Below are positions 16,881 through 20,940 of a stretch of DNA of 20,940 bases, piece after piece. The notes below the pieces were generated by a model, which saw nothing but the letters and a program-made list of their open reading frames with translations, did not search any database and was not told the origin of the DNA. Source of the DNA: a bacterium (GTDB lineage: Bacteria; Thermosulfidibacterota; Thermosulfidibacteria; Thermosulfidibacterales; Thermosulfidibacteraceae); contig JALVZS010000196.1 of NCBI GenBank assembly GCA_027022065.1, forward strand, positions 1-20,940, written 5' to 3'. Every line of letters begins with the position of its first letter. Position 1 is the first letter of the stretch. The translations under genes were made by a program, and so were the position numbers.

Positions 16881-17527
16881 CGAGAAAAGATAGGCTGAAA
16901 AAGCTCTCAAAAAAATCTCCCATTTACAGGGCCGCTTACGCCTATCTTCTGCTCAAAGAGGGAAAGGTGAAAGAGGCGAGGAGGCTCGCTACCGGTAAGG
17001 ATGATCTATCCCTTTTCGTTAAAGGGTGCTGTCTTGTAAAAGAGGGGAGGCTGGAGGAGGCCTTTGATCTCTTTTACGGGCTTGCACAGAAGAATCCTGT
17101 TTACTTCGGTGTGCACCTCAAGCTTGTGGAGGTGGCTAAAGAACTTGATAGACTGGACGAGGTGGAGGCAAGCGTTAATCTTCTCAAGTCTGTGTATAAG
17201 TGTCCTATACTAGAAGATCTAGAGCCTGCGGAGGTGGTGGTTATAGAGGAGGGAGAGGAGTCCCAGGACGAGGATGTGCTTGTCCTTGAGGAGGAGTCCT
17301 TTGTAACCGTGGAGATGGTGAGGAGCCTGTTTGAGCAGTTCCTCTTTGAGGAGGCCTATGAGCATGTCAAAAAGCTCCTGGAGCTTGAGCCGGAGAACGA
17401 GGAGGCCCTGGAGCTTAAGGCCAAGATTGAAAGTTACCTAAAATACCTTGAGCCGGAGGAGCCTGTTGAAGAGGGTGTTGGTGATGCACGGGCCCAACCT
17501 GAATCTTCTGGGGAAGAGGGAGCCTGA
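16859..17527 (+). CDS. TPR-like hypothetical protein
   Basis: The 222-residue product has helical pairs of tetratricopeptide type at about 22-110 (AAYAYLLLKEGKVKEARRLA, VKGCCLVKEGRLEEAFDLFY) and again at about 150-198 (FLFEEAYEHVKKLLELEPEN). A very acidic stretch lies at about 121-148 and an acidic tail at the end. It has no signal peptide or membrane segment, so it is cytosolic. It starts at TTG 16859, behind GGAGGAG (16847-16853) in the aroK 3' end, 5 nt away. No ATG or GTG exists near the start of the frame. It sits where aroB would be expected. The fold suggests a scaffold or partner protein; its partner is unknown, perhaps the pilus machine encoded upstream. Confidence 0.75.
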   Translation: MPFKFKITRKDRLKKLSKKSPIYRAAYAYLLLKEGKVKEARRLATGKDDLSLFVKGCCLVKEGRLEEAFDLFYGLAQKNPVYFGVHLKLVEVAKELDRLDEVEASVNLLKSVYKCPILEDLEPAEVVVIEEGEESQDEDVLVLEEESFVTVEMVRSLFEQFLFEEAYEHVKKLLELEPENEEALELKAKIESYLKYLEPEEPVEEGVGDARAQPESSGEEGA

Positions 17528-17909
17528 AATATACGGAAGAACCACTCTCTATCGCCTCAACAGGATGCTGGAGGAGTTGGGGGAGAAACTGGGACTTGAT
17601 GTTGTTACCTACCAGAGCAACAGCGAGGGGGAGCTTGTGGAGGCTGTGCACGCCGCAAGGGGCAGGTTTGACTTCATTATCATAAATCCAGGTGCCCTAA
17701 CTCACACGAGCATTGCCTTAAGGGACGCCCTGTTGGCCGCAGAGGTTCCTTTTATAGAGGTTCACCTTTCCAATGTTTTTGCCAGGGAGGAGATGAGAAA
17801 AAGATCCACGCTATCCGATGTAGCTAAAGGGGTGATTTCGGGCTTTGGAGTTCACTCCTACATCATGGCCCTTAGGTTTGTGGCGGGGGCGGATGGTGAA
17901 ACCAAGTGA
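17466..17909 (+). CDS. aroQ: 3-Dehydroquinate dehydratase, type II
   Basis: The enzyme converts 3-dehydroquinate to 3-dehydroshikimate. From TTG 17466 it is 147 residues and begins MKRVLVMHGPNLNLLGKREP, the family's usual opening. Active-site residues are present: Y23 in PEIYG, N74 in NPGALTH, H80, H100 in IEVHLSN, and R111. The frame opens six codons earlier at TTG 17448, and ATG 17484 would remove the first strand. TTG 17466 fits best because GGAGGAG (17455-17461) lies 4 nt upstream. The gene thus begins 62 nt inside the TPR-like gene, in another frame, and overlaps the peptidase gene by 17 nt. Confidence 0.95.
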   Translation: MKRVLVMHGPNLNLLGKREPEIYGRTTLYRLNRMLEELGEKLGLDVVTYQSNSEGELVEAVHAARGRFDFIIINPGALTHTSIALRDALLAAEVPFIEVHLSNVFAREEMRKRSTLSDVAKGVISGFGVHSYIMALRFVAGADGETK

Positions 17910-18960
17910 GCTCTGCGGCAGGCTGAAGGGCATCATGGAGGAAAAGGGGCTGGATGCGCTTCTTATTAGCAAGATAGAAAATGTGAGGTATCTGACGGGT
18001 TTTACGGGAACAAGCGGCTTTGTTCTGGTCAGGGAGGATAACGCACTTTTTATCACGGATCCGAGGTATACCCAGCAGGCAAAAAGGGAGTGTGAGGGCT
18101 GGGAGGTTTTTGAGCTTAAGGGTAAGAGGCTCTCCCAGTGGATGGCAGAGACTATCGCTCCGAAGAGGCTGGGGGTTGAGCAGTGGCTGACCTTGGGTAG
18201 CCTTGAGCGGATGAAGGAGCACTTGAAAGATACCGTTTTCGTGGTGGTTTTTGATGTTGTTGAGAACATGAGGGTGTCAAAGACCGAAGATGAGCTTAAG
18301 ATGATAAAGGAGGCCTTGAGGATAGCTGAGGAGTCTTTTAAGGAACTGCTTTCCCTGGTTAAGCCCGGTGTTTCTGAAAGGGACCTTGCCTTGGAGCTTG
18401 AGTGGCTAATGAGGAAAAAGGGGGCGGAGGCAGTATCCTTTTCCATCATTGTTGCATCCGGTGCAAGATCCGCACTGCCTCACGGGGTCGCCTCTGGTAA
18501 GGTGATAGAGCCAGAGGAGCTTGTGCTCTTTGACTTCGGATGCGTCCATAGGGGATACTGCTCAGACATTACCAGGGTGGTGAAGCTGGGGAAGGTTTCT
18601 CGAGAGGAGAAAAGGGTTTGGCAGGCGGTTGTTGATGCTTCAAGGGCTGCCGTTGAGGCTATAGAGAACGGGGAGAGGAGTTGTTCCAGGGTGCACAAAA
18701 CAGCGGAGGAGGTGCTTTCCAAATACGGGTATAACGAGTATTTCGGCCATGGATTGGGGCACGGGGTAGGGCTTGAGATACACGAAAAGCCTTCGCTTTC
18801 TCTCCTTTCGGAGGATAGCTTGGTGGATGGGTGCGTGTTTACTGTGGAGCCTGGGGTTTATCTGCCAGGTAGATTTGGCATAAGGATTGAGGATATGTTT
18901 TACCTAAAGGGGGATCTTGTGAGGCTCACCTCTTTGCATTCTGAGATAATAGAGCTTTAG
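17893..18960 (+). CDS. pepQ: Xaa-Pro aminopeptidase/dipeptidase, M24B family
   Basis: This peptidase removes residues next to proline using two metal ions. The 355-residue protein has a creatinase-type N-terminal domain (about 1-125, NVRYLTGFTGTSGFVLV, FITDPRYTQQA) and a pita-bread catalytic domain. All five metal ligands are visible: D214 (LFDFG), D225 (CSDITR), H290 (GHGLGHGVG), E319 (TVEPGVY) and E333 (RIED). H297, at the expected distance, completes the site. ATG 17893 is chosen over the in-frame ATG 17845, which lies deep within aroQ and would add 16 atypical residues. An aroQ-pepQ pair, often followed by efp, is common; here radA follows instead, in the same frame, just after the TAG. 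Confidence 0.93.
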   Translation: MVKPSELCGRLKGIMEEKGLDALLISKIENVRYLTGFTGTSGFVLVREDNALFITDPRYTQQAKRECEGWEVFELKGKRLSQWMAETIAPKRLGVEQWLTLGSLERMKEHLKDTVFVVVFDVVENMRVSKTEDELKMIKEALRIAEESFKELLSLVKPGVSERDLALELEWLMRKKGAEAVSFSIIVASGARSALPHGVASGKVIEPEELVLFDFGCVHRGYCSDITRVVKLGKVSREEKRVWQAVVDASRAAVEAIENGERSCSRVHKTAEEVLSKYGYNEYFGHGLGHGVGLEIHEKPSLSLLSEDSLVDGCVFTVEPGVYLPGRFGIRIEDMFYLKGDLVRLTSLHSEIIEL

Positions 18961-18972
18961 GAGGGGACCATC
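18960..18972 (+). promoter_or_regulatory. Shine-Dalgarno sequence and apparent ATC start of radA
   Basis: GGAGGGG (18960-18966) begins on the last base of the pepQ-like TAG and lies 3 nt before ATC at 18970 (5 nt counted from GGAGG). Reading from ATC restores the first Cys pair of the RadA zinc finger (Y-V-C-R-N-C-G-Y-E-S-P-K-W). Between the TAG at 18958 and ATG 19012 this frame holds no ATG, GTG or TTG. Confidence 0.7.
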
Positions 18973-20301
18973 TACGTATGCAGGAACTGCGGATATGAAT
19001 CTCCCAAATGGATGGGGAAGTGCCCAAGCTGTGGCCAGTGGTCCACATTTGAGGAGAAATCCAAGGAGAAAGTTCCTAAAGCTAAAAAGGTTAAGCCTAT
19101 AAAGCTGTCTAGGGTTGATCTCTCCTCTGTTCCAAGGCTTCCTTTTCTGTCAAGCCAGCTCAACAGGTTCTTCGGAGGGGGGCTTGCCCAGTCTTCCGTT
19201 ATTCTGATGGCAGGGGAGCCAGGAATAGGAAAGTCAACACTGCTTTTGCAGCTTCCCAAGATGCTGAAAGATCAGGCAGATGTGCTTTACATAAGCGGGG
19301 AGGAGAACCAGTTTCAGGTGGCAGAAAGGGCGGAGAGATTGGGGGTCGAGGATGCCTGGTTTCTTTCCACAAACAATTTGGAGGAGGCCTTTTCCTGCGT
19401 AGAGGAGGTTTCTCCTGAAGTCGTGGTGATTGACTCCGTTCAAACCCTTTCTGCAGGAGGGGTTGACGGGGTTCCTGGAAGCCCCTCCCAGGTAAGGGCC
19501 GTTGCTGAAAGGGCGGTGGAGTTTGCCAAATCAAAGGATGTGGTACTTTTCCTCGTGGGGCACATCACAAAGAGCGGTGTTATAGCGGGGCCAAAGCTTT
19601 TGGAACACTTAGTGGATGTGGTGGTGTATCTTGAAGGGGACAGGCGCTCTCCCTTAAGGGTGCTTAAGTGCGTTAAGAACAGATTTGGTCCCACAAACAA
19701 CGTGGTGCTTTTTGAGATGACGGCAAAGGGATTGATTGAAGTGGAGAATCCATCGGGTTACTTCGTTGATGAAGCCTCTTTGGAGGTGCCGGGAAGCGTT
19801 CTTTCCTCTGTGGTGGAGGGCACAAGGGCCTTTGTGGTGGAGGTTCAGTCTCTTGTTGCGCCCAGCGTTCACCCTGCGGCAACAAGAAGGGTGGCCTCTA
19901 TGTATGATGTCAAGAGGCTATTTTTCCTGCTTGCTGTTGCGGAGAAGTATCTGGGGGTGAGGTTTGCTGGAATGGATGTGTATTTGAATATTCCAGGGGG
20001 GCTTTATGTGAGGGATACTGCCACTGATCTTGCGGTTGTTGTATCTCTATACTCCAGCCTTTCAAACAGATCCGTTCCCAAAGATGTGATTGTAATAGGT
20101 GAGGTGGGGCTTACAGGAGAGGTGAGGTGGGTTAGGGATGTGGAGGCGAGGTTGGTTGAGGCTTCTTCCATGGGAGTGAGAAAAGCTTTGATTCCAGCCT
20201 CTTTTGGGTGTAAAATAAAACAAAGTGATGTGAAGGATCTGCAATTGGAGCTACATCCAGTTGCCAGGATCCAGGAGGCTGTGGAGGTGTTATTCGGATG
20301 A
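18970..20301 (+). CDS. radA: DNA repair protein RadA/Sms (non-ATG start)
   Basis: RadA is a hexameric RecA-like helicase that extends D-loops in recombination and natural transformation. The 443-residue form has a C4 zinc finger (C4, C7, C18, C21), Walker A GEPGIGKS at 82-89, VVVIDSVQT, the family-specific KNRFG at 236-240, and a C-terminal Lon-protease-like domain (LNIPGGLYVRDTATDLAVVV, GEVGLTGEVRWV). A conventional ATG at 19012 would delete the first half of the zinc finger, which RadA proteins conserve, so the start is placed at ATC 18970 behind a strong Shine-Dalgarno sequence. The frame is also continuous with the pepQ-like gene apart from its TAG. The gene ends in ATGA with carD. The product call is certain; the start is inferred. 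Confidence 0.93.
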   Translation: MYVCRNCGYESPKWMGKCPSCGQWSTFEEKSKEKVPKAKKVKPIKLSRVDLSSVPRLPFLSSQLNRFFGGGLAQSSVILMAGEPGIGKSTLLLQLPKMLKDQADVLYISGEENQFQVAERAERLGVEDAWFLSTNNLEEAFSCVEEVSPEVVVIDSVQTLSAGGVDGVPGSPSQVRAVAERAVEFAKSKDVVLFLVGHITKSGVIAGPKLLEHLVDVVVYLEGDRRSPLRVLKCVKNRFGPTNNVVLFEMTAKGLIEVENPSGYFVDEASLEVPGSVLSSVVEGTRAFVVEVQSLVAPSVHPAATRRVASMYDVKRLFFLLAVAEKYLGVRFAGMDVYLNIPGGLYVRDTATDLAVVVSLYSSLSNRSVPKDVIVIGEVGLTGEVRWVRDVEARLVEASSMGVRKALIPASFGCKIKQSDVKDLQLELHPVARIQEAVEVLFG

Positions 20302-20801
20302 GTGAAGCCTACAAGGTGGGAGAAAAGGTGGTGTATCCCGCCCATGGGGTAGGGGTTATAGAGTCCCTTGATGAGATGGAGATAGAAGGGCAGAGGCTGA
20401 GGCTTTTGACCATCAGGATAATGGAGACAGATGCGGTTATAAGGGTTCCTGTGGATAAAGCAGAGCGCATAGGGGTGCGCCGCATAATGGGAGAGAATGT
20501 GCTGGAGAAGGTTATGAAGGTGCTTAAGGAGAGGCCTGAGAGGGAGGCGTCTGACAAAAAGGTTAGCTGGACCGTTAAGCATAGAAACTACCTTGAAAAG
20601 GTAAAAAGCGGCAACGTTGAAACGGTTGCGGAGGTATACAGGGACCTGATGCTTCTGAAAAGAGAAAAGGAGCTTTCCTTTGGCGAAAGGAGGATACTGG
20701 AGTCTGCCCAGCAGTTCCTCGCTTCTGAGATTTCGGAAGCAAAGGGCATCTCCTTTGAGGAGGCGGAGGATCTCCTTAAAAGCTTATTTGAAGAGGATTG
20801 A
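20298..20801 (+). CDS. carD: CarD-family RNA-polymerase-binding regulator
   Basis: The 167-residue protein begins with the CarD/CdnL RNA-polymerase-interacting domain (KVGEKVVYPAHGVGVIESL, residues 6-24, through about 65), related to the Mfd and TRCF module. A helical C-terminal domain (about 75-165) includes the conserved W in VSWTVKHRNYLEKVKSG and the AEVYRDLMLLKREKELSFGE motif. CarD stabilises the open promoter complex of housekeeping sigma holoenzyme, notably at rRNA promoters. ATG 20298 overlaps the radA TGA. It is followed after 3 nt by a YacL-like gene, a common neighbour of carD. Confidence 0.93.
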   Translation: MSEAYKVGEKVVYPAHGVGVIESLDEMEIEGQRLRLLTIRIMETDAVIRVPVDKAERIGVRRIMGENVLEKVMKVLKERPEREASDKKVSWTVKHRNYLEKVKSGNVETVAEVYRDLMLLKREKELSFGERRILESAQQFLASEISEAKGISFEEAEDLLKSLFEED

Positions 20802-20804
20802 CGC

Positions 20805-20940
20805 ATGGGCAGAGTCATTCAGGTTGCAATAGTTCTCTGCGGGATCCTTCTGGGCGTCCTTACGGGAAGGTACTACGTAAAGGTAAGCGTTGAGGGGATG
20901 GTCCTTGGCGGTTTTGTAGGCTTTATGGGCTCTGTTCTTA
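20805..20940 (+). CDS. YacL-like membrane protein (expected PIN/TRAM), N-terminal 45 residues
   Basis: ATG 20805 is 3 nt after the carD stop and the frame stays open to the window edge. The peptide has two hydrophobic segments, VIQVAIVLCGILLGVLTG and MVLGGFVGFMGSVL, split by the short YYVKVSVEG loop. This pattern and the place after carD match the N-terminal membrane part of YacL-type PIN/TRAM proteins. The PIN nuclease and TRAM domains would lie beyond the edge and cannot be seen. No Shine-Dalgarno sequence is obvious in the 3-nt gap; GGAGG motifs lie within the carD end. Confidence 0.6.
   Translation, partial: MGRVIQVAIVLCGILLGVLTGRYYVKVSVEGMVLGGFVGFMGSVL

Follow-up and report, generated by a model that had tools for sequence, protein, structure and literature searches.

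A candidate AUC start codon for radA at a lineage-specific pepQ-radA junction

Background

The zinc finger of the RadA protein is required for its interaction with RecA, as substitutions C13A and C27A have indicated (PMC10003422), and C28Y abolishes the function of radA in Escherichia coli (PMC4786428). In the DNA of an uncultured bacterium analysed here (20,940 nt, hereafter the window) the frame 18961-20301 encodes RadA/Sms and is preceded, in the same frame, by the TAG stop codon (18958-18960) of an upstream peptidase gene. The question raised by this locus is where the translation of radA begins, given the original prediction that no ATG, GTG or TTG codon stands between that stop and the first cysteine pair of the finger and that the codon ATC at 18970 serves as the start. 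AUC is among the bacterial start codons discriminated against by IF3 (PMC4611024). According to data cited in PMC12350097, E. coli reporters that begin with it are expressed at over 100 times background. The gain of an AUC start has been recorded in 0 of 61,358 ancestral AUG starts (PMC5622118).

Methods

The start of radA was compared in 107 RadA rows, two of them being the window's own gene, which corresponds to about 105 loci. The radA gene of the sister genus genome G001 has its 5′ end beyond its contig and hence falls outside the start comparison. The use of start codons in the window's genome was surveyed in stretches of about 440 kb (about 28% of the genome), in which 226 genes with homologues were assessed with an approximate filter against a reference consisting mostly of one order-level relative. 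The infC gene served as a positive control outside the survey, having no counterpart in the reference sample.

Results

The radA/sms gene (18970-20301, + strand, counted from the proposed start) encodes a product that matches the RadA/Sms equivalog TIGR00416 with 444.1 bits, above the curated cut-off of 403.05. Upstream of it lies a pepQ-like gene for an M24 Xaa-Pro peptidase (17908-18960, + strand; PF00557 and PF01321), whose 5′ coordinate is the boundary of the query, and downstream a carD-like gene (20298-20801, + strand; PF02559, PF21095), which follows radA in relatives too. When re-read from the sequence, the frame and the coordinates of the original prediction proved correct. The codon order is GAG CTT TAG (18958-18960) GAG GGG ACC ATC (18970) TAC GTA TGC (18979) AGG AAC TGC (18988) ... 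ATG (19012), with six codons between the TAG and the first zinc-ribbon Cys at 18979 and no in-frame ATG, GTG or TTG among them. Thus the conserved N-terminus of RadA lacks a canonical start, as is expected of a gene with an AUN near-cognate start. In the two other frames no canonical start occurs from the last stops (TGA 18942 and TAG 18950) to the first Cys, except for ATG 18978, which opens six codons followed by TGA. Since neither of these frames offers a usable start, a single-base indel would not restore a normal start of radA, and the frameshift explanation was rejected.

The codons upstream of 19012 almost certainly code for protein, as judged from their conservation. The zinc ribbon PF18073 (C4, CxxC...CxxC) scores 48.9 bits when these codons are included. 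Counted from ATG 19012 it scores 20.0 bits, under the cut-off of 25.7, and the first CxxC is lost. Between the first Cys and the last Trp of the finger, comparison with the family relative G002 shows seven synonymous codon changes and four replacements. The Cys residues and the CGYESPKWMGKCPSC core are free of replacements, and this pattern argues that the region upstream of ATG 19012 has been kept as protein. A finger that is conserved here and needed elsewhere places the start among the six codons after the TAG. The only in-frame AUN codon between the TAG and the first Cys is ATC 18970-18972 (+ strand), which, by this reasoning, is the only plausible start preserving the finger, in agreement with the original prediction. 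The predicted N-terminus would be (f)M-YVCRNCGYESPKWMGKCPSCGQW.

The proposed start is preceded by a Shine-Dalgarno (SD) sequence, AGGAGGGG (18959-18966, + strand), which overlaps the pepQ stop codon. It contains a perfect AGGAGG (18959-18964) 5 nt ahead of ATC 18970, and the GGAGGGG that had been reported to end 3 nt before the ATC was found at 18960-18966. Such a strong SD with proper spacing is a mark of genes with AUN near-cognate starts. With a bacterial anti-SD assumed, the duplex energy is -10.9 kcal/mol at ATC 18970 versus -1.6 at ATG 19012, and the former value exceeds that of many genes of the window but not the strongest ones. By itself the motif is weaker evidence, its count being not significant across the window: AGGAGG stands 4-8 nt upstream of 0.8% of positions, and 0.36 occurrences of AGGAGG-N5-ATC are expected in the shuffled window. 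RNA folding of the start region gave weak structure only. The ATC lies 9 nt past the pepQ stop, a layout fit for translational coupling.

Among the approximately 105 RadA loci compared, the window's gene alone is devoid of a canonical start; in the others the start lies mostly 8-9 codons ahead of the first Cys. The original prediction had named a clearly different start in a relative as evidence against the ATC. Such a start was indeed found in G002, the nearest relative with the 5′ end of radA sequenced, in the form of a TTG 7 codons before the Cys, but it occupies another site on the chromosome, which marks the ATC as specific to the window's lineage and does not refute it. The AUC start is therefore not conserved in the relatives compared, which belong to other genera. 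In genome G026 (locus L032) an ATG is placed exactly 3 codons before the Cys, at the position of the window's ATC, and the protein begins M-F-V-C, which demonstrates that a RadA with so short an N-terminus exists. Ile occupies the position of the window's ATC in 17 of the 105 loci.

Comparison of gene order revealed that the pepQ-radA junction, which the original prediction had not noticed, is new, the product of a lineage-specific rearrangement. In the relatives the genes form two separate blocks, pilQ-aroC-aroK-(tpr)-aroQ-pepQ and radA-carD-PIN-ispDF, and in the sister genomes G001 and G002 pepQ is followed by a convergent gene. Only in the window's genome, among those compared, are pepQ and radA adjacent, the radA block beginning within 18 nt after the pepQ TAG. 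The end of pepQ, GAGCTTTAG, is common to the window and to G001, where radA is not adjacent. Contig C235 of the window's genome (L191, G000:C235, 1-5816) appears to continue the last gene of the window (20806-20940, PIN/TRAM); on it lie the remainder of that gene, ispDF, a GGDEF gene, an acetyltransferase gene and nuoA-nuoB-nuoC. An N gap separates ispDF from the GGDEF gene, and C235 does not overlap the window's contig C196. The acetyltransferase and nuo genes are located near pepQ in G002. C235 thus leads from the radA block back to genes that neighbour pepQ in G002, and this gene order makes an insertion of the block behind pepQ, in the window's lineage, the most likely event. Within the pepQ block, aroQ (3-dehydroquinate dehydratase, 17448-17910) begins inside the end of the TPR gene ahead of it, probably with GTG or TTG, and several genes around it overlap and have GTG or TTG starts.

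In the 226-gene survey radA alone gave clear evidence of a conserved protein extending upstream of all canonical starts; non-canonical start use throughout the lineage was accordingly rejected. Six other flags were dismissed as N gaps or as 3-5 chance identities. In L145 (G000:C20) and L175 (G000:C30) genes are interrupted by short runs of N (scaffold gaps), which give the false impression of a missing start or a broken frame. The infC gene of the window's genome (L113, G000:C249, - strand) has an AUA start behind GGAGGT. In most members of the order that were read no ATG, GTG or TTG fits infC, and the AUA behind GGAGGT is kept in five others (L251, L249, L246, L247 and L248), which indicates that the lineage tolerates AUN starts.

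Discussion

We consider it probable that translation of radA begins at AUC 18970 with fMet-tRNA and that this start was born of the rearrangement behind pepQ. The rearrangement would have set radA-carD-PIN-ispDF behind pepQ, stripping radA of its leader, promoter and start codon, so the loss of the ordinary start may be attributed to the placement of the radA block directly behind pepQ. The start would then have been taken over by a codon just ahead of the zinc finger, either an internal Ile codon or a former ATG that had mutated. The AGGAGG overlapping the pepQ stop would direct the initiator fMet-tRNA to AUC 18970, and ribosomes finishing pepQ would re-initiate 9 nt further on, which is probably the main source of radA translation. 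Both an SD sequence and a short distance are known to favour re-initiation beside a stop codon (PMC2268962). The expression of radA may consequently be low, sensitive to IF3 and coupled to pepQ. A more specific version, in which the rearrangement placed radA under IF3-sensitive AUC and pepQ-coupled control and an Ile sense codon became the start, is a tentative and rather doubtful proposal; if true, the levels of RadA would depend on IF3 and on the translation of the peptidase.

The case for AUC comes from one draft metagenome assembly of a single genome, in 251 contigs with N gaps, and an error of assembly or consensus has to be weighed against it. Were C18972 a miscall, the true codon at 18970 would be ATG, an ordinary start at the short position. 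One substitution would be enough, G026 has ATG at this very position, and natural AUC starts are very rare; the rarity of AUC gains (PMC5622118) gives the AUC reading and a consensus base error comparable priors. On the other hand, the window contains no N, single-base indels yield no canonical start, and about 220 kb of aligned coding sequence of the window's genome displays no frame breaks outside N gaps, although this is little informative on substitutions. Because the rearranged junction explains the lost start and the frames are clean elsewhere, we favour initiation at AUC and regard a miscalled base as unlikely, while still a real possibility. A chimeric assembly, with the real radA possessing its own upstream region and start, would be in line with the separation of pepQ and radA in relatives and with the fragmented state of the assembly, in which the N gap of C235 falls on the right-hand side of the block. 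A random misjoin, however, would hardly leave pepQ whole, radA whole from 3 codons before the Cys and an SD between them, and C235 returns to the neighbourhood of pepQ in G002, which renders a chimera highly improbable.

The other two alternatives accept the sequence as it stands. No canonical start precedes ATG 19012 (19012-19014, + strand) in the frame, and a standard gene finder would presumably choose it; initiation there would yield a RadA lacking the first Cys pair as well as YVCRNCGYESPK. This is very unlikely: the codon is the conserved Met of KWMGKC and has almost no SD, the 11 codons upstream of it encode the conserved CxxC core with synonymous changes versus G002, and the finger that would be damaged is needed for RadA function elsewhere. 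Amber readthrough producing a pepQ-RadA fusion, which the original prediction had offered as a rarer alternative, takes its appeal from the shared frame and from the G following the TAG. We find it disfavoured, and indeed exceedingly improbable, because TAG is a common stop, ending 52 of the 231 surveyed genes, because prfA (RF1) is present, and because the pepQ stop is ancestral, G001 having the same tail with a different gene behind it. Moreover, readthrough would not need an SD overlapping the stop, and no suppressor tRNA was found among the few tRNAs in the partially sampled contigs.

Initiation at AUC 18970, if true, would be a natural use of AUC as start in a gene other than infC, and one whose cause can be seen, namely a rearrangement removing the normal start. 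The rescue by a strong SD beside an upstream stop would represent a concrete route to near-cognate starts, and radA would offer a means of testing whether a recombination gene is under IF3-sensitive control. Gene finders that take only ATG, GTG and TTG are expected to call ATG 19012 and so to drop a functionally essential pair of the finger. A literature search for a near-cognate start of radA found nothing relevant.

The best known near-cognate AUN starts are those of infC, encoding IF3, e.g. AUU in E. coli, and they serve the autoregulation of IF3. Like infC, radA would combine an AUN start and a third-base mismatch to fMet-tRNA with a strong SD and an upstream stop that is near or overlapping; unlike the AUA of infC, which is kept across the order, the AUC of radA is found in one genome only, and any regulatory role of it would be putative. 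The dsg gene (infC) of Myxococcus xanthus has an AUC start codon and is in this respect the likeness of the window's radA, differing in being a translation-factor gene. The pepQ-radA junction, with stop, SD and start within 15 nt, also resembles gene pairs coupled by termination-reinitiation (PMC2268962), from which it differs in that the start is AUC instead of AUG, GUG or UUG and that the coupling is predicted. The observation itself is real, and the AUC start is a rare but known device of which radA is an unusual instance.
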